64,000 bases of DNA from Amphiura filiformis (Eukaryota; Echinodermata; Ophiuroidea; Amphilepidida; Amphiuridae), in assembly GCF_039555335.1 (NCBI RefSeq), contig NC_092631.1, forward strand, positions 2,232,001 through 2,296,000, read 5' to 3'. The notes under the pieces were generated by a model. That model saw only the letters and a program-made list of their open reading frames with translations. It searched no databases and was not told where the DNA came from. Of this stretch, positions 2,275 through 59,416 are shown one piece after another (within the stretch, counting starts at the first letter, position 1; each line of letters opens with the position of its first letter). The translations under genes were made by a program, and so were the position numbers.

Positions 2275-3336
2275 ATGGATTACGTGGATGGAAGTATGTC
2301 TCTCGTAACGCTTTCGCCAGACACCCTTTTTGGTACCGAACCAAGCCCTAGTAGTAGTAGTAGCAGAAATTCTGGGGGTTTGCTCTTTGAAGCAAGTATC
2401 ACTGTTGCTGTGGTCAGCACTCTCATAAGCTTCATCACTGTAGTTGGCAACATTTTTGTTTTCTATATAATCTATACAGACAAACGCCTTCTTACATACA
2501 CTAACTATTACATCTTGGCCCTCTCAGCATCTGATATAGTTGCAGGTGGATTTACAATGCCGTTATATTCAGTCTATTGGATTCTTGGATATTGGCCTTT
2601 CAGCGATATGCTATGCGATGTGTACCTTTATGCAAACCAAGCTTTCATGCACATCAGTATCATAATGATTGTCACCATTGCGTACGATCGCTGGGATGCG
2701 CTGGAACATGTCGAACACCCTCTTCAACATCTTAAGAGACGGACCCTAAGCCATGCAATAAAGCTAATAAGCATAAGCTATATCATACCATTGCTAATCT
2801 GGCTTTTTGCATCTTTTCTCTGGCCGTATCTAAAGGGCTCCCGCAATATCCTGCCAGGTCGTTGCTACCCTCAGTATGTAGCTGACAGTTTTATATTTCT
2901 CTTATTTGCACCAATAATTTTCTTCTGGGCTCCCTTTGTCATCATATGTGTGCTGTACGCTCGTATATACCAGATTATCCGTCGCACTGGGATCTTGCAG
3001 AAACCTTATCGACTCCCTGCTGCTGAACATATCGGTACAACAGGCAAGTCAACAAGTGTGGCTGTAGTCGTCACTAAGAAAGCATCTGAAGATAAAAACA
3101 CCCATGATAATCCAGCTTTCTCCAAAGACGAAGAACATGATGGGTCAGATAAATCTGGCAGGGATCAGCCAGGAGCAAATTCTGCTCATATTGACAAGTT
3201 TCGCAAGGAGAATAGGCGTGCCAACCGAACATTGACATTGATTTTGATCGCTATGGTGATATCATCGTTACCATGGTCAGCTTTGGCTCCTGTTTATGGT
3301 AGCTGTAGGTCATGTATTCCATTGTCATTGTATCAG
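2275..3336 (+). CDS. R1: muscarinic-like class A GPCR, exon for TM1-6
   Basis: This open exon encodes 354 residues of a rhodopsin-class receptor acting at the cell surface. Visible landmarks are a Ser-rich N-terminus (residues 1-40), TM1 with N59, TM2 with the sodium-site D87, TM3 starting at C114 and ending in DRW 138-140, ECL2 C197, TM5 P220, a polar third inner loop (about 233-316), and TM6 with P333 followed by C344-x-x-C347-IPL. Spacing from C114 to DRW and from P333 to C344 matches muscarinic receptors exactly. Key differences are N121 for the amine-binding Asp, and S331 and S335 for the TM6 Trp and Asn. A three-residue insertion (VEH) lies in inner loop 2. The exon ends in cag|gtaagt at phase 0; an in-frame stop follows two codons later. 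The start MDYVDGS is supported by R5 and R6. No TM7 exon is seen. Ligand unknown. Confidence 0.85.
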
Positions 3337-4366
3337 GTAAGTTAAAAAACAATTGTGAAATAATTAAAGAAGTTAAACTCCATTAAGTATCCTTGTTTGA
3401 GGACGTTGGGAAGGCGCGTTATGTCTTTTCAGACTCCCAGGGTGGAGTAGTCAGCAGCGTCAGATAGCAATGGTCTGTTTATGTCACAGAAGGTTCTTTT
3501 TTGGACCGGATCGGATTTTGTTAATTGTCTGCTTGTGTTTTTTCTGCGAGTATAAGAAATGTCTACTTTAATTTCTGGAGAAATTTTCAAATGACAATAC
3601 CTGGCTGCAGATAATGAAGTAACTAACTAAATTAACTACGTATTCTTTTTATAAACTATCTAAACTAACTTTTCATTTGCCCAATGTATTCATGTAAAAT
3701 ATTTGAACCAGAGATGATTAAGGAATAGGGAGCCCTTCCAAAGGTGGATCAGCCAAGGGGTTTGAGGTTTGTACTAACATATTTTGTGAGTATTCTAACT
3801 AAACAATCTCAGAAGGCTGCTTGTTTATGTCTGCTGTTTTAGATGTACATTATTGCAAGAGTGGTGTTTTTAATCTTGCATATTATACTAATATTATACT
3901 AACCTTGATTTAATATATTATATTTTACCTAATTTTGACATTTCTTATGGTACACAAATGTCATGTTTGTCATGTCGGTGCATATTGTCAAATAATTCAC
4001 TATGTTGGATTGAAAGTATCTTACATTACTTTTAAATTCATCATAATTAAATGATTGCAATTACTTGTAAATGACAACATTACATTCTGTAATGCATATT
4101 ATGTACATTTTGTGCATTGTTTAAATAATTGTGTTTCCATTTACTTTAATGCCACATCCATAATATTTTGAGTAATTTTTCACAAAATGCAATGTCTCAA
4201 ATATGGACAATATTTTGAAGCACTGATCAGCGCAGATAATTGATTTTAGTTTGATAAGCATACCGAAACACATATTACGCGGATGTGCATATGATGGAAA
4301 CACAAAACACTTCAACATGATTGGCCACTGGCTTGTGCAACTTGATCACATGGGCAGTCTACACCT
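3337..4366 (+). other. 3' flank of R1 (start of intron or intergenic)
   Basis: This begins with the splice donor gtaagt and an in-frame taa. The first roughly 900 bases are paralogous to the 3' flanks of R4 (12495-13340) and R6 (47189 onward), and the first 100 or so also match R5, so the duplicated unit extends past the exon. I read it for a TM7-type exon (Trp/Tyr-rich, Asn-Ser-Thr-x-Asn-Pro) and found none. Confidence 0.5.
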
Positions 4367-4370
4367 TTAA

Positions 4371-4738
4371 GGGTATACGATGTATTGTTGGTCGAAGCAG
4401 CCAAAAAAAGTAGTTCGCAGCATCTTGCGAATGACAGTGAGCTTTATCAAAAATTGCATTGCTCAATTCATAGCGAGCGTGTAGAAGAATTCAAATATCA
4501 CAGATATAGTATAGGTCCTGTGGTTCTTGAGTTATTTTGTAAAGAGGGCTGAAACAACATCACTTTTGTAAAACGTACATAACTCATTAACAACAATAAA
4601 TTAAGCAAGTTTTCAAAGTATATGATTTGTAGAATGAACTTTTGCAAAACACCAAAGTGTTATTTTTCAATAATATATTGATTCAGATAATGAAAATCGA
4701 TTTTTTGGCTGCTTCGACCAACAATACCTCGTATACCC
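4371..4738. mobile_element. TTAA-site MITE, family 1
   Basis: A 368-bp element has inverted ends (GGGTATACGA.GTATTGTTGG...) and TTAA on both sides. The ends are complementary over about 45 bases, down to TTTTTTGGCTGC. TTAA targets point to the piggyBac or Kolobok superfamilies. There is no coding capacity. The paralogous copy is at 48211-48577. Confidence 0.75.
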
Positions 4739-4742
4739 TTAA

Positions 4743-5741
4743 ATCTGAAAACTATTTATTAATATACGGAAAGAAAGTGTATTGTTTGTGAATTATATTG
4801 CAAGTTAGTGGCTAACTTTTTAAGGTTATTATACATGCAACAGACTATTCCCTTTTAAAGGGGCACTTCTTGATCCACAACTTAATCAAAAAATTATAGA
4901 GATTTTTATGCCATTAGAAAACATAATGTTTGTGTACAAAACCTTTCTTGCAGATTCGGTGGTTTGAAAAAGGACCAATTTGTATTTCTACAATTACAAC
5001 ACAGTAGACTATGCCATAGTCGAATTTTATTTAAAATATGTTATTATTAGTCATGATAAACCCATTTCGTTGAACTCAAAATTATACTGATGTTTATTAA
5101 AATTAAAGTATTCAATAGTAAAATGGTCATAAAGAGTTAAAAATATCAGATAATTAGTGACAATAAAAGTAACTGAATGCAACATTATCTTGCATAATTA
5201 TAATGGCTCACTTTAATACTGAACAATTCTGATTTTGGAATCTACCAGTTTATTGATAGCGAACCCCGAAAAAGCTAACAAACAGAGGGAGTGCGGTGAC
5301 TGAAAAGATCAGATACAGATGTGAAAATCTATCAGTTGCACACAAATCAATATAAATAAGAGTTTTATGCTTAAATGTAATGACCAGAGTATGCAAAATG
5401 GGCAAGTGGACTACGGAGAAGTCTAACACAGTGGCATGATATGGAGCACTGTAATATACATACATAATTATACAATTATGCGTAACTCGCAAATTCAATT
5501 GAAATTCATTTCAACTGAAATATTGGTAATAAGCTTTTTTGTGGATATCTTTCGAACCATACACTTAAAAGAGGATGATAAAATCACGAAATGTCCCATT
5601 AAAGGAATTTTTCATTTGAGATAATGTGTATCAGAATCGTTAATGATCCCCTCACTCGATAAAAGCGCCTGTGGAAAATACAGTTATTACTCCAAATGAA
5701 TGGATACGAGGTAGCTCTAATTTGTTACACGCATGTGATTT
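4743..5741. other. AT-rich intergenic DNA
   Basis: No gene is visible. The stretch from about 5430 to 5640 belongs to a dispersed repeat that also occurs at 49150-49345 and, more diverged and in the opposite orientation, near 20340-20500; a related end is seen near 31255. The shared core is 'tatccac.aaaaagctta' and 'cgcgagtta/cgcaagtta'-like sequence. The remainder is duplicated in copy B. Confidence 0.45.
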
Positions 5742-5880
5742 TAAAGGGTGTCCCAGAAAAAATGACCGGGTGAATGAATTTGAACATAATTCGAGCAAGG
5801 TATCAGAATCCAAAAATTTAACTTGAATCGGTTGAATGATTGCGAAGAAATGAGTGATTACATAATGCATGCGTCAATTC

Positions 5881-6299
5881 TCGCTATTCGCAATAAGGGC
5901 GCCGCCAGCGGTTTGCGATGTAATCGTGATGTATCATGGGAAAATCGTGATGTATCATGGGAAAAGGTCGACATCCAAGTCCGCGCAATACGAATATTAC
6001 CATGCTATTACATAGGAACACGTGACAATATTCTTTAGTTTGTCAATATAACGGTATTACACGCAAATCGATAGAGAAAAAATTAATTGTGCACATTTCA
6101 AATCACATTATTAAGTATTATTGAGTATCAATTCGCGTGTAACACCTTTATTTTGACAAACTACAAAAATTTTGTCACGTGTTCCTATGTAATAGCATGG
6201 TAATATTCGTATTGCGCGGACTTGGATGTCGACCTTTTCCCATGATACATCACGATTACATCGCAAACCGCTGGCGGCGCCCTTATTGCGAATAGCGAG
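5881..6299. mobile_element. 419-bp MITE with 5-bp target duplication AATTC
   Basis: Long inverted ends (TCGCTATTCGCAATAAGGGC..., about 130 bp, with one tandem 17-base duplication in the left arm) are flanked by AATTC on both sides. The paralogous site in copy B (around 49605) reads gtcAATTCacttc without the element, a clean empty site. It therefore inserted after the block duplication, or was absent from the other lineage. There is no coding capacity. The superfamily is uncertain; a 5-bp duplication would fit Transib, but the ends do not identify it. Confidence 0.85.
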
Positions 6300-6942
6300 A
6301 ATTCACTTCATTCCTAGTTTGATAGAAACTGGTTAACATGTCAATCGGCTTTATATTATTTTGTTTTATTGAAATCCTTTTCGTTCTTTTAAACAAATCT
6401 TCAAGTTTGACAATACTGCACGATATTAAAAATGAAAGCCTGCGTTTAAGATGATGCTCTGTATTTTGTAAATATCTTTTCTTCGTTAATGTTAATATAA
6501 TTATTGCTTAAATAATTATTACATAATGTTTTCTTACAATGTTTTTCAAATATTACCAAGAAATATAAATTTCTTAAAACATCAACATAATGTTGCATGA
6601 TATCAAAAATCACACGTAAAGCTGTAAGCTCTTGACCATCATGATCATTGTCATTCTTGGCTCAAATGTTCTTTGGAAAGTTAAAATATAACATATTGCA
6701 CAACATTAATAATTAAAGCTGGGAAGCTGCCAACGGGGAGAAAGTTTTTGCAGGCAAGCTGTTGCTTTTAATATTGTCATAAGTAATTAATACTAAAAGT
6801 TTTATCTTTAAACAAAAACTAAAAACATTAAACATAATATTCCACAATATGAAAAATTGAAGCTGCAAGCTCATCATTTAATCATGTCTTTCTCGGTTTT
6901 TTGAAAAGATTAACACATTGCATGACAAATTAGAGCTGTTAA

Positions 6943-7302
6943 GGGGGTACTACACCCCTCGATAAATTTGTGTTTATTTTTGCATTTTTCTCAAAAACTA
7001 ATATTACAGTGGTAACAAAAGTTATGTATATTATAGGGGCAAGGAATCCAATTACTACACTGGAATTTCAGTGACCCAAGACAAGCGGTTCGTTATTTAT
7101 GATAAGAAATAAGGTACCGCTGGGATGTACCTCATTTCCTATCATATATACTGAACCGCTTGTCTTGAGTCACTGCAATTTCAGTGTAGTAATTAGATTC
7201 CTTGCCCCAATAATATACACAACTGTTGTTACCAGTGTGTTATTATTTTTTGAGAAAAATGCAAAATTAGTCACAAATTTATCACAGGGGTGTAGTACCC
7301 CC
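6943..7302. mobile_element. TTAA-site palindromic MITE, family 2
   Basis: A 360-bp, nearly fully self-complementary element begins GGGGGTACTACACCCCT and ends in the inverse, with TTAA on both sides. It is nested in the mariner-like element 5744-7651. Other copies are at 20958-21317 (complete) and 50244-50562 (truncated and internally altered). No coding capacity is visible. Confidence 0.8.
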
Positions 7303-7653
7303 TTAACATGGTTAATGTTATAGCTACCCAATTTCAGGAATCCATGTTAAGTTTCTTATAATTTAACCACTGTGTATTAATGCGAAGGCAAATCAAAAGT
7401 TATATTCAGGTAGTCCACCTTCAGCAAATATGAGCGAATATGACAAAAAAACCAGCTGTTGATCAAACTTGCATTGGTGCGCGTATTATGTATCGCTCAT
7501 TTCTTCGTAATTCATCCGAATCTATAATCCATAAAATTTACGTATAATGCACAATAAAATGAGCTGCTAGCCGCTTTTTTAATTTTTGGATTCCAATGTC
7601 TATTTCTCGACCTTTGCTCAAATTTATTCACCCGGTTATTTTTCTGGGACATA

Positions 7654-8211
7654 CAGGCAGTATGTTCAATATTAACTGATTTAGATGCAATTACAAACCA
7701 ATCGAAACTAATATTTTGCTTCTCTCGTCACTTAGAAACAGCTTTTCTCACAAAAAGGGTGCTTTATAAACTTCAACAAAGGACGTGTTTGTTTAATATG
7801 AAACATATACTATGGGTATTAATGTATTTCAATTATATAATTGCTTTGAATGTTGTTAGTTTGCTTCCAGCTTTAAACACAATGATTGTAATATACTTGA
7901 ACAAATCTTTTTTATGATTTCCTGCTTAATAGGGATTCCTTACGTTAGGTTTTCACTATTTGTAAATGTCTAGAGATTTACAATAAATCCGGCAATAGTG
8001 AAGTATTTTTGATTTGCTATCTTTCTTTTCATTGTAAGACTTGGCTGTAAATGAGGAGAACGCTTTGCGCCAGTATTCTTACATAGATGCCTCAACAAGT
8101 TCGTGCTAAACTGAAGTCTTATTATTTCGTATTTTTTAATCACTGCATAAAATAACCTCTCAGCCGATTTGCTTTATTTGAGACTGTTCTGCCGATAACT
8201 CGCATCTTCTA
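7654..8211 (+). promoter_or_regulatory. 5' flank of R2
   Basis: This is the region upstream of the R2 start, matching 50868-51426 upstream of R7. From about 8010 it shares diverged landmarks with the R1/R5/R6 flank ('tttctt..cattgtaa.actt', 'caagttcgtgctaa.ctgaa', 'gataac.cg..tcttct'). It is a possible promoter or 5'UTR; no core element can be assigned. Confidence 0.35.
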
Positions 8212-9113
8212 ATGGATAATGAAAATATGACTCCCGTAACACTTTCGCCAGACACCTTCTTTGGTACCGACGGTTCATCAAGCAGTATAGTAGCAGCAAT
8301 TCTAGGGGCTTGCCATTTGAAGCAAGCATCATTGTAGCTGTGGTCAGCACTCTCGTAAGCTTCATCACTGTAGTTGGCAACATCGGCGTGTTCTATATAA
8401 TCTATACAGACAAACGCCTTCTTACGTACACCAACTATTACATATTGGCTCTAGCTGCATCTGATATAGTTGGTGGTTTTACAATGGCGTTATATTCAGT
8501 CTATTGGATTCTTGGATATTGGCCTTTTAGTGATATACTGTGTGATGTGCACCAATATGTAAAAGCAGCTTTCATTCACATCAGTGTCCTAACGATTGTC
8601 ATCATTGCGTACGATCGCTGGGATGCGCTGGAACACCCTCTTCAACATCTCAAGAGACGGACTCTAAGCCATGCAATGAAGTTGATAAGCATTACCTATA
8701 TTATACCACTGATGTACTGGTTTTTTGCAATTTTCCTCTGGCGGTATCTTAACGGCTCCCGCAATATTCTGCCAGGTCGATGTTACCCTCAATTTGTAGC
8801 TGACAGCTTTACGTTTCTCTTATTTGTACCTATTGTTATATTCTGGGCTCCCTTCGTCATCATATGTGTGTTGTACGCCCGAATATACTTGATTATTCGT
8901 CGCACTGGCGCTTCACAGAAACTTTGTCAACTCCCTACTGCTGTCAGAAATCAACCAGGAGCAAATTTTGCCCATCACGATCAGGAGAATAAGCGTGCCA
9001 ATCGAACATTAACATTGATTTTAATCGCAATGGTGCTAGCATCTTCACCATGGTCGACTTTAGCTCCTGTTTATGCTAGCTGTAGTTCATGTATACCATT
9101 GGCATTGTATAGT
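8212..9113 (+). pseudogene. R2: TM1-6 receptor exon, damaged copy of R7
   Basis: The start MDNENMTPV at 8212 matches R7, but two extra bases in the Ser-codon run near 8286 shift the frame. The correct frame reopens from about 8310 (MPFEAS...) and continues through TM1-6. At the 3' end, R7 reads tat-cag|gtaagttaa whereas R2 reads tat-agttaa: six bases are missing, removing the last codon and the GT of the donor. Exon splicing is therefore probably impossible, and a stop follows at once. The rest is nearly identical to R7, including the short third inner loop and Lys at the TM3 amine-site position. Loss looks recent. A truncated protein from the internal Met cannot be excluded. Confidence 0.8.
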
Positions 9114-9432
9114 TAAGGGTACACGTAGGGTCACTATAAGTGGGGAATTTTACACATTGTTTTGTATCGTATCGTAAAAAGGAACGATGATAAGGTCATA
9201 AAAGTACACATTTTTAGACAGAAAATGATATAAGAAATCCAACTATAGCACAGCAGATTTCTGAAAAAAAGAAAAAAGAAATAGCTGTTTTTGAGCAAAG
9301 CACCAAAATATTTGATTGTCCATACTACTAGTAATTTTGTTAGAAACCTTAAATTTCCAAATCGATGAAAACTGCATACTAATGTTCTAAAGACACAGCC
9401 TGACTATTTAAAAAGGTAAATTGCACGTTCAT

Positions 9433-9866
9433 TTATTACTTCTTGGCTCTAGCTGTATAGTTGCTGGTGGTTTTACAATACCGTTGTATTCATTCTATTG
9501 GATTCATGGGTATTGGTCTTTTAGGGATATGCTATAAAATATTTACCTATATTTGAATCACGGATACATTCACATCAGTATCATAATGATTGTCACCATT
9601 GCTTACAATCGCTGGGATGCATTTGCAACGCTTTTCAACTTCTCTTAAGAGGTGTACTCTATTCAGCAGTGAAGATTGCTCTGTAAGGCGACGAAAAAAG
9701 AAAACCCTTTTCTACGGGCCCGACCGACCCGGATTTTGAACAAATTTTTGAACAATTTCCTGTGAATGCCGACCCAAATTTCGGAAATTACAGGAAGAAA
9801 TATTTTCTCAAATTGCAAATTATTTATAGATTTTGGTGATTTTGGGTCATTTCCAAAAAAAAAAAG

Positions 9867-9897
<31 letters not shown>

Positions 9898-10674
9898 CCG
9901 ACCGATCGACCCTACTTGAAAGGTCCGTCCGCCAGTAGAACAGGGTTTCTTTTTTCGTCGCCTAATGGATGATCTGGTATATAACGCGTTTGATAACAAA
10001 GGAAGTCCAGAATATAATAAGAATGTTTCAATTACGCAATTTGATTTGATATTGCGGCTCTTTGGATTAATGTTCCTAGTATTCCATTCTAATTGCTTTG
10101 ACTAAATACTAATTCCCATTTCTTATCTGGCTCTTTGCACCTTTTTTCTTCTATGGCCGTATCTAAAGGGCGCTCGCAGTATACTGCCCGGTCGATACTA
10201 CGCACAGTATGTAACCGAACGCTTATATTCGTCTTATTTGCACCTATTATTTTTTATTATGGGCACCCTTTATATTATATGTGTCATTTACGCCCGTATA
10301 TACTTGATTATGCGTCGCACTGGAGGTTTACTGAAACCTTATTGGCTCACTGCTGCTGATCATCAGATCATGTCGGTACAACAAGTAACTCAACAAGCAT
10401 GAATAGTCGTCACCAGGAAAGCATCTGAAGATAGAGACGCCAATGATAATCCAGCTTTCTTCAAAAACGAAGACATGGGTCCCTAGACAAATCTGTCGAG
10501 GATCCATCAGAAACAAATCAGCTCATAACGACAACTTTGGCAAGGAGAATAGGCGTGCCAATCGAACATTGACATTGATTTTGATCGCTTTATGGGATAT
10601 CATTGTTACCATTGACAGCTTTGGCTCCTGCTTATGGTAGCTGTAGGTCGTGTATTCCATTAGTATTGTATCAG
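9433..10674 (+). pseudogene. R3: decayed receptor remnant
   Basis: Two stretches of receptor-like sequence remain. The first, 9433-9675, covers TM2 to the start of inner loop 2 (recognisable 'ttgtattc.ttctattggatt', 'atcgctgggatgc'). The second, about 10114-10674, covers TM4 to TM6 and ends at a weakened donor (cag|gtatta). Several stops and frameshifts interrupt both. A TA-site MITE (9685-9961) sits between them, and TM1 and the start codon are missing. The remnant is paralogous to R8 at 52643-53279, so it was already decaying before the block duplicated. Confidence 0.8.
9685..9961. mobile_element. TA-site MITE with poly-A stretch
   Basis: Inverted ends AGGCGACGAAAAAAGAAA.CCC are flanked by TA on each side, 277 bp. 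The middle holds an A-rich run of about 50 bases. There is no coding capacity. It lies inside the R3 remnant and is absent from R8, where a different GC-rich stretch occupies the corresponding region. Confidence 0.7.
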
Positions 10675-11245
10675 GTATTAAAGTTAAGCGATGTGTTTTA
10701 ATGCATTTTAATCTAAGTAATGAGTATTTTAAGTGAAAAGTGAATGCTGAGAAGTCGCGCAAGAATTACTTTTGATTTGCTTTCTTTCAATTTATTGTCA
10801 GACTTTGTAGTATATGAGGAAAGCGCAATCAATCCCAGCATAGAACTGCAGCGTGTTCAACTGAACTGTTTTCCGGTAATAATAATCGGAAATTAATTGA
10901 AAGCATTTGAGCGTAATATACCTTTCATTATATCTCAAATCAAGTTCCAGGGAAATAGTCAAAAAACTTGTTTGTACGCGGGCGTTAGTATCCTCATGAA
11001 GGTCGTGGCGTAACAAGTACGTGTTTAGCTGAAATCATATTATTGATATACTGTCGTGTTTTTAATCACATCATAGAATTGTGACGTTTCCGAATGACCT
11101 GTTTTCAGTTTTGGTAATGAAAATTGGAAATCAATTAAAGGCATTTTAGCGTCATCATACATTTCATAACATCTCAAGTTACGGAGAAAATATTCAGCCG
11201 ATTAGCCTCATTTGAGACAGTTCAGCCGATAACACGAGTCTTCTA
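10675..11245 (+). promoter_or_regulatory. 5' flank of R4
   Basis: This matches the R9 flank (53280-53977) and, in part, the R1/R5/R6 flank. 'cgcgcaagaattac' is at about 10757. A second partial copy of the conserved block ('atgaaggtcgtggcgtaaca' through 'cctgttttcag') lies at about 10990-11111, followed by 'ataacacgagtcttct' before the start codon. Parts of the block are present twice, as if assembled from two units. Confidence 0.4.
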
Positions 11246-12494
11246 ATGGATTATCAGGATAGAAATATGTCGCTCGTAACGCATTGGCCAGACACATTCT
11301 TTGCTACCGAAACTTCAAGCAGTAGTAGTAGCAGCAAGAATTCGGGGGGTCTGTTCTTTGAAGCAAGCATCATTGTCGCTATGGTCAGCACTCTCGTCAG
11401 CTTCATCACTGTAATTGGCAACATTTTTGTTTTCTATAATTATAATCTATACAGACAAACGCCTTCTAACGTACACTATACTTTGGTTCACCTTAAGTTT
11501 GGTAGTGACGTCAATGCTCTTTCGCGGTTGCGCCGCAAGCGTGCTTACAAATCGCCCATGTGCGCGTGCGTGTACACTCAGGGCGTTTAACTTTACGCGC
11601 GCGATTTGATACTGCGGCAAGCGAAATAAGCACCTACGTCACTACCGAACTTGAGATGAACCAAAGTATAACTATTACATATTGGCTCTAGCTGCATCTG
11701 ATATAGTTGCAGGTGGATTTACAATGCCGTTATATTCAGTCTATTGGATTCTTGGGTACTGGCCTTTCAGTGATATGCTATGTGATATTTACCTATATTT
11801 AAATCACGCTTTCATCCACATCAGTATCATACTGATCCTCACTATAGCGTATGATCGCTGGGATGCGTTGGAACATCCTCTTCAACATCTCAAGAGACGG
11901 ACTCGAAGTCATGCAATGAAGTTGATAAGCATAAGTTGCATCATACCATTGCTGATCTGGCTTTTTGCATCATTTCTATGGCCATATTTAAAGGGCTCTC
12001 GCAATATCTTACCAGATCGATGCTACCCTCAGTATGTAGCTGACAGCCTTATATTTCTCTTATTTGTACCTAGTCTTTCCTTCTGGGCTCCCTTTGTCGT
12101 CATATGTGTGCTGTACGCTCGTATATACCAGATTATCCGTCGCATTGGGATCTTGCAGAAACCTTATCGACTCCCTGCTTCTGAACATGTCGGTGCAACA
12201 GGCAATTCAACAAGCACGACTATAGTCGTCGCTAAGAAAGCATCTGAAGATAAAAACGTCCATGATAATCCAGCTTTCTCTAAAGACGAAGAACATGGTG
12301 GACCAGACAAATCTGTCAGGGATCAGCCAGAACCAAATTATGTTCATAGCGAAAAGTTTCGCAAGGAGAATAGGCGTGCCAATCGTACATTGACATTGAT
12401 TTTGATCGCTATGGTGATATCATCGTTACCATGGTCAGCTTTGGCTCCTGTTTATGGTAGCTGTAGTTCATGTATTCCATTGTCATTGTATCAG
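11246..12494 (+). pseudogene. R4: TM1-6 receptor exon split by a MITE
   Basis: The N-terminus MDYQDRNMSLVTH (with an N-M-S glycosylation sequon) and TM1 are followed by two lesions. One is a four-base insertion in TM1 (ttctataattataatc against ttctatataatc in its relatives). The other is a 190-bp MITE at 11479-11668 between TM1 and TM2. After the MITE, TM2 through ECL3 is open again (11682 on), ending in cag|gtaagt. The TM3 amine-site residue is Asn (YLNH). The 5' half resembles R9, while inner loop 3, TM6 and the 3' flank resemble R1/R5, suggesting gene conversion or unequal crossover. Confidence 0.85.
11479..11668. mobile_element. 190-bp TA-site MITE inserted in R4
   Basis: The inverted ends are TACTTTGGTTCA.CTTAAG, continuing to GGTAGTGACGTCA. 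TA flanks both sides, and removing one TA and the element restores the receptor sequence seen in R1 and R9. The middle is CG-rich (gcgcgtgcg). This is a Tc1/mariner-type target; no coding capacity is visible. Confidence 0.85.
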
Positions 12495-18533: not shown

Positions 18534-19580
18534 ATGGATTACGTGGATGAAAGTATGTCTCTCGTAACGCTTTCGCCAGACACCTTCTTTGGTACCGAAC
18601 CAAGCAGTAGTAGTAGCAGAAATTCTGGGGGTTTGCTCTTTGAAGCAAGTATCACTGTCGCTGTGGTCAGCACTCTCGTAAGCTTCATCACTGTAGTTGG
18701 CAACATTTGCGTTTTCTATATAATCTATACAGACACACGCCTTCTTACGTACACTAATTATTACATCTTGGCTCTCTCAGCATCTGACATAGTTGCAGGT
18801 GGTTTTACAATGCCGTTATATTCAGTCTATTGGATTCTTGGGTATTGGCCTTTCAGTGATATGCTGTGTGATGTGTACCTTTATGCAAACCAAGCTTTCA
18901 TGCATATCAGTATCATAATGATTGTCACCATTGCTTACGATCGCTGGGATGCGCTGGAACACCCTCTGCAACATCTTAAGAGACGGACCCTAAGCCATTC
19001 AATAAAGCTAATAAGCATAAGCTATATCATACCATTGCTAATCTGGCTTTTTGCATCTTTTCTCTGGCCGTATCTAAAGGGCTCCCGTAATATCCTGCCA
19101 GGTCGTTGCTACCCTCAGTATGTAGCTGACAGCTTTATATTTCTCTTATTTGCACCAATAATATTCTTCTGGGCTCCCTTTGTCATCATATGTGTGCTGT
19201 ACGCTCGTATATACCAGATTATCCGTCGCACTGGGATCTTGCAGAAACCTTATCGACTCCCTGCTGCTGAACATGTCGGTACAACAGGCAAGTCAACAAG
19301 CATGGCTGTAGTCGTCACTAAGAAAGCATCTGAGTATAAAAACGTCCATGATAATCCAGCTTTCCCCAAAGACAAAGAACATGATGGGCCAGACAAATCT
19401 GTAAGGGATCAGCCAGAACTAAATTCTGATCATAGCGACAAGTTTCGCAAGGAGAATAGGCGTGCCAATCGAACATTGACATTGATTTTGATCGCTATGG
19501 TGATATCATCGTTACCATGGTCAGCTTTGGCTCCTGTTTATGGTAGCTGTAGTTCATGTATTCCATTGTCATTGTATCAG
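18534..19580 (+). CDS. R5: muscarinic-like class A GPCR, exon for TM1-6
   Basis: This open exon encodes 349 residues ending in cag|gtaggt at phase 0, with an in-frame stop two codons into the intron. It is R1-like throughout: MDYVDESMSLV start, Ser-rich N-terminus, GYWPFSDMLC before TM3, Asn at the TM3 amine-site position (residue 119), DRW, inner loop 2 with EHPLQHLKRRT (no VEH insertion), ECL2 Cys in GRCYPQY, TM6 ending SSLPW and CSSCIPL. Inner loop 3 differs from R1 at scattered positions but stays in frame. Its nearest relatives are R1 and R6, so it is a recent duplicate. No TM7 exon follows. The conserved upstream block is split by a 1.56 kb insertion, which may affect its expression. 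Cell-surface receptor; ligand unknown. Confidence 0.85.
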
Positions 19581-29471: not shown

Positions 29472-29479
29472 GTAAGACC

Positions 29480-33145: not shown

Positions 33146-33153
33146 ACCTATAC

Positions 33154-33465: not shown

Positions 33466-33470
33466 ACCTA

Positions 33471-33795: not shown

Positions 33796-33797
33796 TA

Positions 33798-35420: not shown

Positions 35421-35439
35421 CGTAACTAACATTTTTTCC

Positions 35440-46132: not shown

Positions 46133-47188
46133 ATGGATTACGTGGATGGAAGTATGTCTCTCGTAACGCTTTGGCCAGACACCTTTTTTGGTACCGAACC
46201 TTCAAGCACTAGTAGCAGTAGCAGCATCAATTCTGGGGGTTTGCTATTCGAAGCAAGTGTCATTGTCGCTGTGGTCAGCACTCTCGTAAGCTTCATCACT
46301 GTAGTTGGCAACATTTTTGTTTTCTATATAATCTATACAGACAAACGCCTTCTTACGTACACCAACTATTACATCTTGGCTCTCTCTGCATCTGATATAG
46401 TTGCTGGTGGTTTTACAATGCCGTTGTATTCAGTCTATTGGATTCTTGGGTATTGGCCTTTTAGCGATATGTTATGCGATGTGTACCTTTATGCAAACCA
46501 AGCTTTCATGCACATCAGTATCATAATGATTGTCACCATTGCGTACGATCGCTGGGATGCACTGGAACACCCTCTTCAACATCTCAAGAGACGGACCCTA
46601 AGCCATGCAATAAAGCTAATAAGCATAAGCTATATCATACCATTGCTATTCTGGCTTTTTGCGTCATTTCTCTGGCCGTATCTAAAGGGCTCCCGCAATA
46701 TCCTGCCAGGTCGTTGCTACCCTCAGTACGTAGCTGACAGTTTTATATTTCTCTTATTTGCACCAATAATTTTCTTCTGGGCTCCCTTTGTCATCATATG
46801 TGTGCTGTACGCTCGTATATACCAGATTATCCGTCGCACTGGGATCTTGCAGAAACCTTATCGACTCCCTGCTGCTGAACATGTCGGTACAACAGGCAAG
46901 TCAACAAGCATTGCCGTAGTCGTCACTAAGAAAACGTCTGGAGATAAAAACGACCATGATAATCTAGCTTTCTCCAAAGACGAGGAACATGATGGGTCAG
47001 ACAAAATCGTCAGGGATCAGCCAGGACCAAATTCTGATCATAGCGACAAGTTTCGCAAGGAGAATAGGCGTGCCAATCGAACATTGACATTGATTTTGAT
47101 CGCTATGGTGATATCATCGTTACCATGGTCAGCTTTGGCTCCTGTTTATGGTAGCTGTAGTTCATGTATTCCATTGTCATTGTATCAG
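46133..47188 (+). CDS. R6: muscarinic-like class A GPCR, exon for TM1-6
   Basis: This open exon encodes 352 residues from MDYVDGSMSLV and ends in cag|gtaagt at phase 0; a stop follows two codons into the intron. It is the copy B counterpart of R1. Features: Ser/Thr-rich N-terminus, TM2 ASDIVAGG, GYWPFSDMLC, Asn at the TM3 amine-site position (residue 122), DRW, EHPLQHLKRRT in inner loop 2, GRCYPQY in ECL2, WAPF in TM5, a loop 3 of about 84 residues rich in Lys, Asp and Glu, SSLPW in TM6 and CSSCIPL in ECL3. The longer frame from 45989 is not supported by R1. No damage is seen. No TM7 exon follows within the intergenic DNA. Plasma-membrane receptor by family; ligand and G protein unknown. Confidence 0.87.
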
Positions 47189-48206: not shown

Positions 48207-48210
48207 TTAA

Positions 48211-48577: not shown

Positions 48578-48581
48578 TTAA

Positions 48582-49466
48582 ATCTGAAAACTATTTATTA
48601 ATATACGGAAAGAAAGTGTATTGTTTGTGAATTATATTGCAAGTTAGTGGCTAACTTTTTAAGGTTATTATACATGCAACAGACTATTCCCTTTTAAAGG
48701 GGCACTTCTTCATCCACAACTTAATCAAAAAATTATAGAGATTTTTATGCCATTAGAAAACATAATGTTTGTGTACAAAACCTTTCTTGCAGATTCGGTG
48801 GTTTGAAAAAGGACCAATTTGTATTTCTACAATTACAACACAGTAGACTATGCCATAGTCGAATTTTATTAAAAATATGTTATTATTAGTCATGATAAAC
48901 CCATTTCGTTGAACTCAAAATTATACTGATGTTTATTAAAATTAAAGTATTCAATAGTAAAATGGTCATAAAGAGTTAAAAATATCAGATAATTAGTGAC
49001 AATAAAAGTAACTGAATGCAACATTATCTTGCATAATTATAATGGCTCACTTTAATACTGAACAATTCTGATTTTGGAATCTACCAGTTTATTGATAGCG
49101 AACCCCGAAAAAGCTAACAAACAGAGAGACTACGGAGAAGTCTAACAACACAGTGGCATGATATGGAGCACTGTAATATACATACATAATTATACAATTA
49201 TGCGTAACTCGCAAATTCAATTGAAATTCATTTCAACTGAAATATTGGTAATAAGCTTTTTTGTGGATATCTATCGAACCATACACTTAAAAGAGGATGA
49301 TAAAATCACGAAATGTCCCATTAAAGGAATTTTTCATTTGAGATAATGTGTATCAGAATCGTTCAATGATCCCCTCACTCGATAAAAGCGCCTGTGGAAA
49401 ATACAGTTATTACTCCAAATGAATGGATACGAGGTAGCTCTAATTTGTTACACGCATGTGATTTTA
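48582..49466. other. AT-rich intergenic DNA, duplicated from copy A
   Basis: Matches 4743-5743 apart from a deletion of roughly 130 bases near 49128 (between 'aacaaacagag' and 'actacggagaag'). No gene seen. Confidence 0.5.
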
Positions 49467-50865: not shown

Positions 50866-50867
50866 TA

Positions 50868-51426
50868 CAGGCAGTATGTTCAATATTAACTGATTTAGAT
50901 GCAATTACAAACCAATCGAAACTAATATTTTGCTTCTCTCGTCACTTAGAAACAGCTTTTCTCACAAAAAGGGTGCTTTATAAACTTCAACAAAGGACGT
51001 GTTTGTTTAATATGAAACATATACTATGGGTATTAATGTATTTCAATTATATAATTGCTTTGAATGTTGTTATTTTGCTTCCATCTTTAAACACAATGAT
51101 TGTAATATACTTGAACAAATCTTTTTTTATGATTTCCTGCTTAATAGGGGATTCCTTACGTTAGGTTTTCACTATTTGTAAATGTCTAGAGATTTACAAT
51201 AAATCCGGCAATAGTGAAGTATTTTTGATTTGCTATCTTTCTTTTCATTGTAAGACTTGGCTGTAAATGAGGAGAACGCTTTGCGCCAGTATTCTTACAT
51301 AGATGCCTCAACAAGTTCGTGCTAAACTGAAGTCTTATTATTTCGTATTTTTAATCACTGCATAAAATAACCTCTCAGCCGATTTGCTTTATTTGAGACT
51401 GTTCTGCCGATAACTCGCATCTTCTA
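50868..51426 (+). promoter_or_regulatory. 5' flank of R7
   Basis: Almost identical to the R2 flank (7654-8211) and distantly similar to the flanks of the R1 group. Candidate promoter/5'UTR only. Confidence 0.35.
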
Positions 51427-52326
51427 ATGGATAATGAAAATATGACTCCCGTGACACTTTCGCCAGACACCTTCTTTGGTACCGACGGTTCATCAAGCAG
51501 TAGTAGCAGCAATTCTAGGGGCTTGCCATTTGAAGCAAGCATCATTGTAGCTGTGGTCAGCACTCTCGTAAGCTTCATCACTGTAGTTGGCAACATCGGC
51601 GTGTTCTATATAATCTATACAGACAAACGCCTTCTTACGTACACCAACTATTACATATTGGCTCTAGCTGCATCTGATATAGTTGGTGGTTTTACAATGG
51701 CGTTATATTCAGTCTATTGGATTCTTGGATATTGGCCTTTTAGTGATATACTGTGTGATGTGCACCAGTATGTAAAAGCAACTTTCATTCACATCAGTAT
51801 CCTAACGATTGTCATCATTGCTTACGATCGCTGGGATGCGCTTGAACACCCTCTTCAACATCTCAAGAGACGGACTCTAAGCCATGCAATGAAGTTGATA
51901 AGCATTACCTATATTATACCACTGATGTACTGGTTTTTTGCAATTTTCCTCTGGCGGTATCTAAACGGCTCCCGCAATATTCTGCCAGGTCGATGTTACC
52001 CTCAATTTGTAGCTGACAGCTTTACGTTTCTCTTATTTGTACCTATTGTTATATTCTGGGCTCCCTTCGTCATCATATGTGTGTTGTACGCCCGAATATA
52101 CTTGATTATTCGTCGCACTGGCGCTTCACAGAAACTTTGTCAACTCCCTACTGCTGTCAGAAATCAACCAGGAGCAAATTTTGCCCATCACGATCAGGAG
52201 AATAAGCGTGCCAATCGAACATTAACATTGATTTTAATCGCAATGGTGCTAGCATCTTCACCATGGTCGACTTTAGCTCCTGTTTATGCTAGCTGTAGTT
52301 CATGTATACCATTGGCATTGTATCAG
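51427..52326 (+). CDS. R7: short-loop muscarinic-like GPCR, exon for TM1-6
   Basis: This open exon encodes 300 residues and ends in cag|gtaagt at phase 0. The start MDNENMTPV has an N-M-T sequon. TM1-6 are complete with the sodium-site Asp in TM2 (AASDIVGG, one residue shorter than R1), C110 before TM3, DRW, GRCYPQF in ECL2, P in TM5, SSPW in TM6 and CSSCIPL in ECL3. Two things set it apart from R1: inner loop 3 is only about 30 residues, and the TM3 amine-site position is Lys117 rather than Asn or Asp. It is the intact partner of the damaged R2. Both features suggest a different ligand or coupling; that is inference. No TM7 exon is seen downstream. Confidence 0.85.
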
Positions 52327-52642
52327 GTAAGTTAAGGGTACACGTAGGGTCACTATAAGTGGGGAATTTTACACATTGTTTTGTATCGTATCGTAAAAAG
52401 GAACGATGATAAGGTCATAAAAGTACACATTTTTAGACAGAAAATGATATAAGAAATCCAACTATAGCACAGCAGATTTCTGAAAAAGAAAAAGCTGTTT
52501 TTGAGCAAAGCACCAAAATATTTGATTGTCCATACTACTAGTAATTTTGTTAGAAACCTTAAATTTCCAAATCGATGAAAACTGCATACTAATGTTCTAA
52601 AGACACAGCCTGACTATTTAAAAAGGTAAATTACACGTTCAT
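52327..52642. other. 3' flank of R7
   Basis: Begins gtaagttaa, matches the R2 3' flank (9117-9432), and differs from the R1-type flank. No gene seen. Confidence 0.5.
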
Positions 52643-53279
52643 TTATTACTTCTTGGCTCTAGCTATTTCTGATATAGTTGATGGTGGTTTTACAATACCG
52701 TTGTATTCATTCTATTGGATTCATGGGTATTGGTCTTTTAGGGATATGCTATAAAATATTTACCTTTATTTGAATCACGCATACATTCACATCAGTATCA
52801 TAATGATTGTCACCATTGCTTACAATCGCTGGGATGCATTTGCTGGGATGCGTTTTGGCCGCCCCTGCTTTTACCCAGGGGCTGGCGCCCCAAAGTCCCC
52901 CCACCCCAAAAAAAAAAATACGCGCATGGGTTTACTGAAACCTAATTGGCTCACTGCTGCTGATCATCAGATCATGTCGGTACAACAAGCAATTCAACAA
53001 GCATGAATGTAGTCGTCACCAGGAAAGCATCTGAAGATACAGACGCCAACGATAATCCAGCTTTCTTCAAAAACGAAGACATGGGTCCATAGACAAATCT
53101 GTCGAGGATCCGTCAGAAACAAATTCAGCTCATAACGACAAGTTTGGCAAGGAGAATAGGCGTGCCAATCGAACATGACATTGTTTTTGATCGCTTATGG
53201 GATATCATTGTTACCATGGACATCTTTGGCTTCTGCTTATGGTGGCTGTAGATCGTGTATTCCATTTGTATTGTATCAG
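52643..53279 (+). pseudogene. R8: decayed receptor remnant
   Basis: Counterpart of R3. TM2 and TM3 codons are recognisable ('ttgtattc.ttctattggatt', 'gatgcatttgctgggatgcg'), with a stop after the TM3 Cys region. A GC-rich unrelated stretch (about 52856-52928) replaces TM4 and TM5. Loop 3 and TM6 follow with frameshifts, ending at a weak donor (cag|gtatta). The start codon and TM1 are absent. Confidence 0.8.
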
Positions 53280-53977
53280 GTATTAAAGTTAAGCGTTAGG
53301 TAAGTTCGACGCGAAACATTCGCAATGTGTTTTAATGCATTTCAATATAAGTAATGAGTATTTTATCTTTAACATAATGAATTGTAATTTCTTGGGCATT
53401 ACAGCAAACATCACTAGCAATGAATACACTAGTACACAATTAAATATTTTTTAAATCAAGCAAAAGTGAATGCTAAGAAGTTGCGCAAGAATTACGTTTG
53501 ATTTGCTTTCTTTCAATTTATTGTCAGACTTTGTAGTAAATGTGGAAAGCGCAATCAATCCCAGCATATAATTGCAGTGTTTTCAACTGAACTGTTTTCC
53601 GGTAACGATAATCGGAAGTTAATTGAAAGCATTTATGCGTAATATACCTTTCATTTTATCTCAAATCAAGTTCCAAAGCTTTCCAGGGAAATAAAAACTT
53701 GTCTGTACGCGGGCGTTAGTATCCTCATGAAGGTCGTGGCGTAACAAGTACGTGTTTAGCTGAAATCATATTATTGATATACTGTCGTGTTTTTTAATCA
53801 CATCATAGAATTGTGACGTTTCCGAATGACCTGTTTTCAGTTTTGGTAATGAAAATTGGAAATCAATTAAAGGCATTTTAGCGTCATCATACATTTCATA
53901 ACATCTCAAGTTACGGAGAAAATATTCAGCCGATTTGCTTTATTTGAGACAGTTCAGCTGATAACACGAGTCTTCTA
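53280..53977 (+). promoter_or_regulatory. 5' flank of R9
   Basis: Close to the R4 flank (10675-11245). Contains 'ttgcgcaagaattac', then 'atgaaggtcgtggcgtaaca', 'gaatgacctgttttcag' and 'ataacacgagtcttct' before the start codon. Candidate promoter/5'UTR. Confidence 0.4.
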
Positions 53978-56197
53978 ATGGATTATCAGGATAGAAATAT
54001 GTCGCTCGTAACGCATTGGCCAGACACATTCTTTGCTACCGAAACTTCAAGCAGTAGTAGTAGCAGCAAGAATTCGGGGGGTCTGTTCTTCGAAGCAAGT
54101 ATCACTGTCGCTGTGGTCAGCACTCTCGTAAGCCTCATCACTGTAATTGGCAACATTTTCGTTTTCTATATAATCTATACAGACAAACGCCTTCTTACGT
54201 ACACCAACTATTATATCTTGGCTCTATCGGCATCTGATATAGTTGCAGGTGGATTTACAATGCCGTTATATTCAGTCTATTGGATTCTTGGATATTGGCC
54301 TTTCAGCGATATGATATGTGATATTTACCTATATTTAAATCACGCTTTCATCCACATCAGTATCATAATGATCGTCACTATAGCGTATGATCGCTGGGAT
54401 GCGCTGGAACACCCTCTTCATCATCTCAAGAGACGGACTCTAAGCCATGCAATAAAGCTAATAAGCATTAGCTATATCATACCATTGCTATTCTGGCTTT
54501 TTGCGTCATTTCTCTGGCCGTATCTAAAGGGCTCTCGTAATATCCTATCAGGTCGATGCTACCCTCAGTATGTAGCTGACCCGGGGGGGGGCCACTCAAA
54601 TATGAGAGTGTACGCATGCGTGACCAAATTTTTTTCGAACACCCCCTAAACAAGTTTTCCTCTGTGAGCAAAATGACCCCCTAAACAAGTTTTTAGCGCG
54701 CTTTCCCCAAAAATTTGACCCCCTAAACAGGTTTTTGTCTAATTTTGACCCCCTAAACAAGTTTTTGTCTAATTTTGACCCCCTAAACAAGTTTTTGTCT
54801 AAATTTGACCCACGTTACAAGTTTTGATGGATTTTGACAAATTGAACAAATTTTTAGGCCTACTAAGTTAGTAACTTTTCATTGAACACTAAAACTGAGT
54901 CCACCTCCTGGATATAGGCCTACCCCCCCCCCCCGGTAGGCCTATACCTGCCATATCGTACCACTTTAAAATATAAATAATTCAGATTCGTAGCTTGTTA
55001 CATGAATCTGATTGGATTCTCGTAAAGTAGTTTTGTGAGAATATACCAATAGGCCTATTCAGCGTAATTTATCATCATAGTTTATCCAGACGCAACGTTA
55101 AAGCAGTTTTCACATCGTATTTGGTTCCGAATTCGGCACCTAAAGTTGATTATCGTGTCCTGATATCAGCGGCCCTTTTCATGCTTTCTACTGCATATAT
55201 AATTTCCTAAAGTAATCCAGAGAAGGGGAAACTCGCAAATCTACCAGCAGGAGTAGTGAATAATGTGAGGAATCTATAAAGGTCCTAAAAATCTTTTTGA
55301 AATAGGGCCTACATATGATATTTTCATTCCGGATTTTCGTCTCCCCGTTTTGTCCACTGAACTATATACCCATCATCATAATCATGACGTCATTAATTAA
55401 TATGCACGTTTTTAATCTAAACGGTATTTTACATAGAAGTACGAGGCCATGGTTAAATCACATGTAACACGTCATGAAATATATTTGCATAACATAGTGC
55501 TTTAAACATTTATACGACACTGGAATAAACTTTTTCGGAATCGGAGTTTCAGCAGATTTGAAAAGCGGATTAAAATGGTACCCTAAATGCGTTACAAACG
55601 ATTTTAAAACAACCCCTTTCATGAAAATCACCGTTTTTTCCCCCTTAACGCGTCACGCGCGTAACGTGCCCAACCGAAAAAAACACCCCTTTTCACGCGT
55701 TTTTTTGGTCACGCATGCTTACATCATTATATTTGAGTGGCCCCCCCGGGGTAGCTGACAGCTTTACATTTCTCTTATTTGTACCAATTCTTTCCTTCTG
55801 GGCTCCCTTTGTCATTATATGTGTGCTGTACGCTCGTATATACCATATTATCAGTCGCACTGGGATCTTTCAGAAACCTTATCGACTCCCTACCACTGAG
55901 TGTATGGGTACTGCAGGCAATCCAACAAGCATGGCTAAGAAAGCATCTGAATATAAAAACGCCCATGATAATCCAGGTTTCTCAAAAGACGAAGAACATG
56001 GTGTCCCTGACAAATCTGGCGGGGATCCGTCAGGAAGAAATTCTATTCATAACGACAAATTTCGCAAGGAAAATAAGCGCGCCAATCGAACATTGACATT
56101 AATTTTGATCGCTATGGTGATATCATCGTTACCATGGTCAGCTTTGGCTCCTGTTTATAGTAGCTGTAGTTCATGTATTCCTTTGGCATTGTATCAG
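53978..56197 (+). pseudogene. R9: TM1-6 receptor exon split by a hAT-type element
   Basis: Exon sequence runs 53978-54580 (MDYQDRNMSLV with an N-M-S sequon, through ECL2 GRCYPQYVAD) and resumes at 55752-56197 (TM5 to ECL3, CSSCIPLALYQ, donor cag|gtaggt). Between them lies a 1171-bp element flanked by an 8-bp duplication of the receptor sequence TAGCTGAC. Apart from it the exon is open, so loss is due to this insertion alone and looks recent. The TM3 amine-site residue is Asn (YLNH). Loop 3 is shorter than in R1 and lacks the Val-rich stretch. The 3' part and flank differ from R4, its positional partner. Confidence 0.87.
54581..55751. mobile_element. hAT-type element in R9, 8-bp duplication TAGCTGAC
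   Basis: The ends are G/C runs followed by GGCCACTCAAATAT.A and GCATGCGTGACCAAA, inverted at the two sides, with TAGCTGAC at 54573-54580 and 55752-55759. Near the left end a tandem repeat of about 30 bp ('ccccctaaacaagttttt') occurs several times. No transposase frame is visible. The ends resemble those of the element at 29480-29924. Confidence 0.85.
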
Positions 56198-56746
56198 GTA
56201 GGTTAAACAGCGGGTATGTTTCTCAAATAGTCGTTATTTTTCGTTGTATTTTTCTAACTGACAAAAAAGTTGCTGGAATATTATAGTAGCTGACGTTTCC
56301 ACCCACTGCCGGGTATTTTGAACATTCCTGCACACCTTATACATGATAAATTGTATTCCAAACACAAGTGATATTATCATTATGGATAAGTAACAAAGAA
56401 ACGGTATATTGAGATATGTTGGTAAATACAGCAGCTTACGCTAGTAGACACGAACGTGTTATCAACTTGTTTGTAAATATATAATAAATAAATAAGCAAA
56501 TGAACAAATAATAATATACATGTACATAAATCTATAAATAAATAATAAATGACAACATAAATAAATACAATAAATGAATAAATATAAATAAATAAATAAA
56601 TAAATAAATGAATAAATATAAATAAATAAATGAATAAATATAAATAAATAAATGAATAAATATAAATAAATAAATGAATAAATATAAATAAATAAATGAA
56701 TAAATATAAATAAATAAATGAAAAATGAATAAATATAAATACATAT

Positions 56747-56778
<32 letters not shown>

Positions 56779-58270
56779 AAAACTTAATAAATAAAAGCAA
56801 TGCAGTATATATATAACTAGTATTCCCCAATCCACGTGGAAATATTTAGATAAACAGCGGTGTCCCGCTAGTTATCTTTTCATTTAATATGTTAAAAAAT
56901 ATATGCAGAAATAATAATAAAACAGACAGAATATAAAATATTATAATTCCCATTTTGTCCGCTTTCTAATTAGTGTTTGCTTAATTTTTCCTGGTTTTGT
57001 TTTGTGTGTCTATATGTAGTTACCTAAAAATAAATGTTCCTTTTACATATATGTACAAGAGGAAACCTAGGTGATGTATTTATTACATTATTAAACATGT
57101 AAAGATAATAATTTCTTTCTTATTTGTTTCTGTCAATTGTTCCGGTTTAATTTTTGCGTCCAAACACAGTTACAGTTAGTCGATACTAAATGCAACTTAT
57201 CTCATAATGTAAAGTTTTGTCTGATAATGATACATCTTATCTGTTCGTTCAAATATCTTTGTAGTTAAATAAACATCTGAATATAATTGGCACTGTCAGA
57301 TACGGGGAAAGTCCGTCTCGTATGAAGGATTTGATCATTAACAATATCCCATGGTACAAATCACCAATCTAATATGAGTCTTATTAAATCTAAATTCATA
57401 TTAAGCTAAATAAAATAATCATGATAATGGCGGATGGGTGGATGGATTGCATATAGGGTTAGGTAACTGTTTCAAGAGGAAATTAACATTATTAATTGAG
57501 TGCAAATATGCGCATGTGTATGTAACTATCCAAAGAAAAGCAAGTCTGTGGATAGATGGGACCCAACTTAGCACAATACGCACCTACCCACTCAGTATAC
57601 ATCAAGGACTCTGGCATAAATATTTTCTCAATGGGTGAAGCCTAAAAGTACAATTTGCTAGAAGCTCACGAGACATAATGTTATTATCATATTATTGTTC
57701 TTTCAGTAGTATCTATATTTTAGTGATAATCAATTGTAAACCATATACATGATATAATAATACGATTGCGTTTAATATTGAGGATCCAGTGGCGTAGATT
57801 CTTTTTAGTAGAGTATAGTGAATCAAGCAGCTTTTGGCGGCAGAAGTTTATGGTACAAATACCCACGAAGCGCGCGAAAAAGTTTGTCATATTGAAAATA
57901 AAATGGTGTAATATTTTACAAAAGTGGAACAATTGCGTGCGAAAAGCGCAAAAATTGGCACTTTGTGCCTAACTGGCCAAATATGAGGATAATTTGATCA
58001 GAAACCTACATACAGGCGTCAACATGGAGGATGTACAGACCATTCCCTCTTATAAAAATATTGGGGTGATTCACTCCCCTATCACCCCCCACCCATGTAC
58101 GCCTATGCCAGGATCTGTGGTGAAATGAATTATGGGAATGGGTAATTGTTCTATTGCTTGATTGTGTCTAAAATAACAGCAAATAGGTCTACGTAATGTT
58201 TTACTATTCTTACTTCCTTCTGAGAAAGGATTAAAATCGTGACGTACTTATATGGCATGTGTATTGTTAG
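56198..58270. other. Intergenic DNA between R9 and R10
   Basis: Contains the (AAAT)n tract at 56477-56790 and, at about 57780-58110, a stretch resembling dispersed CG-rich repeats ('acgaagcgcgcgaaaaagttt', 'gtacgcctatgccagg'). No TM7 exon or other gene recognised. Confidence 0.45.
56477..56790. repeat. Interrupted (AAAT)n microsatellite
   Basis: Long runs of 'aaataaat' are interspersed with regular 'gaataaatat', giving a secondary period of about 22-24 bp. The Tyr/Ile/Leu/Phe-rich minus-strand frames here are simply the translated repeat. Confidence 0.9.
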
Positions 58271-59416
58271 ATGATGTTTAGCAGTGGAAACAGTACACAT
58301 TGTTTCCTCGAGAGAAGCAAAATGGACGTGCCCAAAACTTTGGATTACGTTAGTGCGTACAATGCTATTGTGCTCCAGCATGAGACTAACGATACAAACC
58401 AAACAAACGTGACCGATAGATTGGATATACATCTGTCAACTCAGGCTATTACTATCGCAGTTTTTAGTGGATTTTTTAACACTATCACTCTGTTGGGGAA
58501 TTTACTAGTAGTTTACGCTTTCTGCACCACTCCAAAGCTACATACTTATACCAATTACTATGTATTGAGTTTGGCTGTCTCTGACATCATTGCCGGTGGA
58601 TTTACTATGCCTATTTATTCGGTTTACTGGGTTTTAGGCTACTGGCCTTTTAGTGACGCTTTTTGTGATGCTTACTTATATATCAACCACGTATTCATTC
58701 ATATCAGTATTTTAGTTATTGTATCCATCGCCTTTGATCGTTGGCAAGCTTTAGTGATGCCTCTGCAACATCTAAGCAAACGTACCCTTAAACACGCACT
58801 GAGTCTTATATCACTGAGCTACATTATTCCGTTTCTGGTATGGTTACCCGGTTGTCTTCTGTGGCCTTATATGCATGGGGGAAGGACAATTCGTTCAGAA
58901 CAATGCTATCCACAGTATGTTTCGGACAGTTTGGTATTTTCGTGTTTTGCGCCAATAATCCTGTTCTGGTTTCCATTGCTTGTAGCAACGATACTTTATT
59001 GGAGAATAATAATTGTCATTCGACGCGCAAAAATGTTAAAAAATAAGAGAAAGTATACAGTAACTATGGAAAGCTTAAGTAGGTCTTCAAGACTAAGTCA
59101 ACGAGCACGTACGGAACTTGAGAATGGAATAAACCATACTAAAGAAAGAAACGCATCTATTAGCCTCCAAGGTGACAACTTTGAAGTGAATGAAGGTTTT
59201 ACTGATGATGTAACACCAACGGTGAACACCCGTAAGCGTACAGTGACTGCGGAAAAGGTTAAACGAGCAATCGAGAAATTAAGGCGGGAAAATGTACTTG
59301 CTACTAATACTCTTACATTGGTATTCATTGCGATGGTGCTGGCCTCCGTACCGTGGTCTGCACTTGTACCTGCTTACAGCGCATGTGGAGAATGTATTCC
59401 ATTGGCACTATATCAG
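58271..59416 (+). CDS. R10: diverged muscarinic-like GPCR, exon for TM1-6
   Basis: This open exon encodes 382 residues and ends in cag|gtaggg at phase 0. A second Met (residue 18, at 58322, context aaaATGg) could be the true start. The N-terminus has N-glycosylation sequons (NST, then NDT, NQT, NVT around 40-48). TM1 has GN, TM2 has the sodium-site Asp in AVSDIIAGG, TM3 starts at C122, the amine-site residue is Asn129, then DRW, with HPL replaced by MPL in inner loop 2. ECL2 has EQCYPQY; TM5 has WFPLL; loop 3 is about 90 residues and basic near its end; TM6 has ASVPW and ECL3 CGECIPL. It shares the exon design of R1-R9 but is clearly diverged, so it may represent the ancestral or an outlying paralogue. 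No TM7 exon was found in the remaining 4.6 kb. Confidence 0.85.

Follow-up and report, generated by a model that had tools for sequence, protein, structure and literature searches.

Ten tandem six-helix receptor exons

We analysed 64 kb of the genome of the ophiuroid Amphiura filiformis (contig NC_092631.1, positions 2,232,001 to 2,296,000 of the forward strand), hereafter the window, numbered from its first nucleotide. One long exon type of class A G protein-coupled receptors (GPCRs) is present there in ten tandem copies, each on the + strand, which we number R1 to R10 (Table 1). The exon comprises a start codon, an extracellular N-terminus, transmembrane helices 1 to 6 (TM1-6) and part of the third extracellular loop (ECL3), and each copy encodes only these six of the seven membrane helices. 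R1, R5, R6, R7 and R10 are intact (5 of 10). Twelve open frames of at least 150 aa occur in the window, nine of them receptor frames and three within repeat arrays; the 49 frames of at least 85 aa were inspected by eye only.

Seven copies (R1, R4, R5, R6, R7, R9 and R10) end at a common ECL3 codon, in the sequence CIPL[S/A]LYQ, followed directly by a phase-0 splice donor. The three that do not keep this codon and phase, R2, R3 and R8, are all decayed. An earlier reading made from the letters alone (the sequence-only reading) had described this common end with gtaagt or gtaggt donors in the same seven copies. The end and the phase held in all seven, and the donor motif in all except R10, which reads GTAGGG. 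That reading had also placed an in-frame stop within two codons of the donor in R1 to R9. A TAA is present there in R1, R4, R5, R6, R7 and R9 (6 of 6), while R3 and R8 have none. The unspliced frame of R10 stays open for 15 codons past the donor and then meets TGA.

By sequence comparison the copies are muscarinic-related, and by their ligand residues they are not acetylcholine receptors. In the four copies tested (R1, R6, R7 and R10) the match to Pfam 7tm_1 started at position 1 and went no further than 223-236 of its 260 positions. The best PDB relatives were the muscarinic receptors M1-M5 (R10, E = 3.1e-43; R6, E = 5.7e-39), with alignments extending through TM6 into ECL3. We assumed the usual residue numbering and its functional meaning, with residues paired as in the PDB alignments. 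All five intact copies keep the signature residues N1.50, D2.50, C3.25, D3.49-R3.50, W4.50, the cysteine of the second extracellular loop (ECL2), P5.50 and P6.50. The muscarinic ligand residues are D3.32, W6.48, Y6.51 and N6.52. Position 3.32 is instead Asn in four intact copies and Lys in R7, and all five carry Ser, Trp and Ser at 6.48, 6.51 and 6.52, together with Trp at 3.51 (DRW for DRY). Membership among the muscarinic acetylcholine receptors was therefore ruled out by 3.32 and the TM6 residues. An AlphaFold model of R6, for which the five intact copies served as the alignment, showed six long helices plus a short terminal segment, at a mean predicted local distance difference test score of 43.5, too weak for use. 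A pattern search of IMG/VR gave 89 matches with no relative among them.

The intact exons show a pattern of purifying selection. The ratio of nonsynonymous to synonymous differences per site (pN/pS) was below 1 in 10 of 10 pairs, ranging from 0.18 to 0.45 (largest Fisher p 1.7e-6, with sites taken as independent and exchange between copies ignored). Ratios were lowest among R1, R5 and R6 (0.18-0.25, with R1 against R5 and R6 at 0.24-0.25), intermediate between R7 and these three (0.33-0.35 at pS of about 0.3), and highest for pairs with R10 (0.44-0.45), where synonymous change is close to saturation (pS about 0.8).

Table 1. Receptor exon copies and leader block in the window; the slash marks the exon-intron boundary.
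Feature	Positions	Strand	Description
Leader block before R1	2085..2274	+	common to R4, R5, R6, R9; shortened in R2, R7
R1	2275..3336	+	intact TM1-6 exon; donor CAG/GTAAGT after 3336
R2	8212..9110	+	decayed, R7 type; 2-nt frameshift; 6 nt lost across donor
R3	9418..10674	+	decayed, in pieces; CAG/GTATTA at donor position
R4	11246..12494	+	broken: frame break, then insert of about 190 bp (11477-11670); donor CAG/GTAAGT after 12494
R5	18534..19580	+	intact TM1-6 exon; donor CAG/GTAGGT after 19580
R6	46133..47188	+	intact TM1-6 exon; donor CAG/GTAAGT after 47188
R7	51427..52326	+	intact TM1-6 exon, shorter third intracellular loop; donor CAG/GTAAGT after 52326
R8	52644..53279	+	decayed; begins 318 bp past R7 donor; CAG/GTATTA
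R9	53978..56197	+	broken by 1171-bp insert (54581-55751); donor CAG/GTAGGT after 56197
R10	58271..59416	+	intact, most divergent (48% identity to R6); donor CAG/GTAGGG after 59416

R4 and R9, previously counted as whole exons, proved to be interrupted, each by a transposon-like insert and R4 also by its frame break. The insert in R4 has inverted TATACTTTGGTTCA ends and resembles a miniature inverted-repeat transposable element. That in R9 has inverted ends, CCGGGGGGG...CCCCCCGG, and is flanked by an 8-bp target duplication, TAGCTGAC, a size that we take to be typical of hAT elements.

Search for the seventh helix and extent of the repeated unit

The sequence-only reading had found no TM7-type exon between the copies or after R10, and three scans of the window upheld this. 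A motif search returned six hits, four of them inside third intracellular loops of the copies, and no TM7 exon. A TM7 profile hidden Markov model (HMM) reached at best 10.1 bits, where the maxima of 20 shuffles (of non-overlapping dinucleotides) were 7.6-16.6 bits and 4 of 20 exceeded 10.1. Eighteen TM7 sequences, 17 from aminergic receptors, went into this profile; held out in turn, these scored 22.1-75.2 bits, the most distant one lowest. The third scan was looser, asking for a phase-0 AG together with a hydrophobic stretch and an NPxxY-like motif; 13 hits fell on the + strand and 11 on the - strand, where 20 shuffles had 1-14. Three of the 13 were readings of R10's own TM1, two read R2 and R7 out of frame and one lay within R3; the remaining seven were not TM7-like on inspection. 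With all three scans at shuffle level, a private TM7 exon behind each copy within the window was rejected. The intact copies are class A by their 7tm_1 match and TM1-6 signature residues, while a TM7 with NPxxY was found in no exon and no interval of the window. Because TM7 is absent here and expected outside, we class the exons as GPCR-derived parts rather than whole receptors.

Apart from one large block duplication, what the copies have in common is the exon, part of the leader and no more than 0.4 kb of unbroken intron. Past the donor, homology of R10 with other copies ends at +3 to +5, R7 and R9 diverge from R1, R4, R5 and R6 at +9 to +12, and R5 parts from R1, R4 and R6 at about +100. 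R1 and R4 remain alike until about +390 and resemble each other in weaker patches as far as about +920. In a comparison of the wider intervals, homology nowhere resumed: the R9 and R10 intervals match none, and the R7 interval matches only that of R2. Otherwise the R5 interval resembles those of R1 and R6 in just two stretches, which match inverted or in both orientations, like dispersed repeats. The segments 6939-7308 and 20954-21321 are such a dispersed repeat, with matches in both orientations.

The large duplication is seen in pieces of 74-9626 that match 43795-52843 at 88-98%, and in R3-R4, which match R8-R9 at 87-94% as far as the donor. These matches (74-12506 against 43795-56209) suggest that a single quartet was duplicated to give R1-R4 and R6-R9. 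No TM7 lies in the intervals of the quartet either.

Within the duplicated blocks, divergence between R1 and R6 is uneven. In the upstream flank 20 of 1284 sites differ (1.6%), and in the exon 52 of 1053 (4.9%). Intron windows at 3450 and 3600 hold 13 of 141 and 14 of 125 differences, and nine windows from 3900 to 5249 hold 0-1 per approximately 150 bp, with four in the final edge window of 50 bp. The tract between 2.25 and 3.9 kb, comprising the exon and about 0.5 kb of intron, is therefore more divergent than its flanks, at a pN/pS of 0.24. The simplest reading, though not proven, is that the tract was replaced from another copy in one of the two blocks; 2250-3900, set against the R6 block, may be a conversion tract. 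Of 100 sites at which R1 and R6 differ, other copies share the R1 base at 50 and the R6 base at 28. This count takes in intron sites at which R5 and R9 lack homology, and it does not indicate which block changed. The last 120 bp of the exon (3215-3334 in R1 coordinates) show 0-3 differences among R1, R4, R5 and R6 and 6-8 against R9.

An upstream block had been ascribed to each of the copies with the common end. We found it before R1, R4, R5, R6 and R9 and in shortened form before R2 and R7, with no match listed for R10. It is a possible promoter or 5' untranslated region. R2 and R7 share the last 25-52 bp before ATG, with weak patches further up. Homology reaches further on this side than past the donor: in R1, R5 and R6 about 0.8 kb of upstream sequence is shared, broken in R5 by 1.6 kb. 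A duplicated unit starting 190 bp before ATG was considered and dropped: since homology of R5 with R1 and R6 returns 1.6 kb upstream (16078-16764), the edge at 190 bp reflects an insertion. A CACAG about 180 bp before ATG in R1, R5 and R6, altered in R4, R9, R2 and R7, could serve as an acceptor, which would make the copies internal rather than first exons.

A shared 3' exon and its alternatives

These data suggest, with a probability of about 0.6, that the window covers the 5' portion of a variable-exon cluster, that this cluster encodes a muscarinic-related class A GPCR specific to the lineage, and that its copies are joined to a shared TM7/C-tail exon beyond position 64,000. Such a cluster would be expected to show several intact tandem exons that agree in donor and phase and lack a private 3' exon, as seen in the window. 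A TM1-6 exon that is intact, under constraint and followed by a good donor calls for a 3' partner, and since remains of R8 lie 318 bp past the R7 donor, any partner of R7 lies beyond R8. We infer one shared exon past 64,000 as the simplest arrangement. Each long exon would then be an alternative coding exon, its phase-0 donor probably joined to a single TM7/C-tail exon on the + strand. R1, R5, R6, R7 and R10 would each yield a different seven-helix receptor with TM7 and tail in common, copies between the exon used and the TM7 exon leaving as intron. Unspliced transcripts may give a six-helix product. The sequence-only reading had proposed the same joining; the intact constrained exons, the lack of TM7 in the window, the end of homology near the donor and the closeness of R8 to R7 fit it, while the shared exon itself, like splicing to it and promoters of the copies' own, we infer. 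A chemosensory-type role, suggested by tandem expansion and turnover, is a guess of the same kind.

Several observations weigh against this interpretation. We observed no TM7 exon, no acceptor and no transcript, and the 4.6 kb past R10 are empty. R1 would require an intron of more than 60 kb. Half of the copies (5 of 10) are dead. The selection estimates among R1, R5 and R6 rest on few changes, and the p values assume independent sites free of exchange.

The dead copies would also be expected if R10 and a TM7 exon beyond 64,000 formed the single live gene, with R1-R9 as first-exon duplicates that make no receptor and look conserved through recent duplication and exchange. R10 lies closest to the expected exon, and the R1-R4 and R6-R9 blocks are recently related. 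We nevertheless consider this unlikely, as R7 has stayed intact and constrained at its synonymous distance from R1, R5 and R6, and open frames with near-consensus donors persist in the latter three. It is less likely again that a TM7 exon, private or shared, lies inside the window but is too divergent or split for recognition. An odd or split TM7 might escape a mainly aminergic profile, whose most distant held-out member reached only 22.1 bits; against this stand the three scans at shuffle level, the 318 bp between R7 and R8, and the R5, R7, R9 and R10 intervals, which share no block fit for a common private exon. Least likely, we think, is that the copies are expressed without splicing as stand-alone six-helix proteins that end at the TAA behind the donor and might pair with full receptors in a dominant-negative way. 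Six-helix variants of the alpha1A, H3, mu-opioid, FP and V2 receptors are tabulated, most as dominant negative, in PMC3477067. The in-frame TAA in six copies would suit such products, although its retention is not independent evidence because the stop sits in a tract shared by descent. The near-consensus donors of all five intact copies would go unexplained, and R10 lacks the early stop.

Insect chemoreceptors form a superfamily unrelated to GPCRs, and it is among them that the closest plan is found. In Drosophila Gr39a, four large exons each encode six helices and three small ones, used in common, supply TM7 and the C-terminus; exons have been gained and lost, and Gr28b, Gr23a, Or46a and Or69a are also named as alternatively spliced (PMC2204066). 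The exons described here, six-helix and without a TM7 of their own, match that plan; in Gr39a, however, the shared exons and transcripts are known, whereas the TM7 exon of our locus is predicted. Protocadherin (Pcdh) and UGT1 clusters likewise combine tandem variable exons with shared 3' constant exons, and in fugu Pcdh gene conversion homogenises the 3' parts of variable exons (PMC1852091, PMC1885805). The near-identical 3' ends of R1, R4, R5 and R6 are reminiscent of the latter. Those clusters differ in not encoding GPCRs and in having known constant exons and established promoters of their own. Among class A GPCRs, truncated or spliced forms of the alpha1A-adrenoceptor and the H3 receptor break between TM6 and TM7, the rodent H3 receptor directly behind the Tyr that closes ECL3; these are single genes with their own TM7 and no tandem TM1-6 exons. 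Sea cucumber OR-like GPCR genes are described in PMC7042368 as mostly single-exon and in tandem arrays, some with two exons. A literature search, mostly of titles and abstract openings with few subscription papers, did not turn up a class A GPCR in which TM1-6 exons stand in tandem as alternatives.

Should the shared TM7 exon exist, a class A GPCR would diversify by exon choice with TM7 and tail fixed, as Gr39a does in a superfamily unrelated to GPCRs. Which receptor a cell makes would then depend on splicing or promoter use within a single locus. Gene models annotated as "six-TM fragment" in such genomes would have an explanation, and receptors varying in TM1-6 only would be available as a natural series. 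More speculatively, and with less than even probability, the locus might be protocadherin-like in full: at least five live TM1-6 first exons with their own promoters and one TM7/tail exon, each cell picking one ligand-binding bundle, intron retention adding six-helix forms and exon exchange reshuffling the bundle.

Other elements in the window

Two segments, 61186-61262 and 63965-64000, look tRNA-like by eye and are perhaps heads of short interspersed nuclear elements; Rfam and tRNA (ARAGORN) scans of the window gave no hits. Between R5 and R6, about 18.7 kb (21908-40575) is bounded by inverted terminal copies (21908-24057 against 40575-38409, 95%) and filled with 136-bp and 119-bp tandem repeats, its middle without a long open frame. 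This segment looks like a large mobile element.

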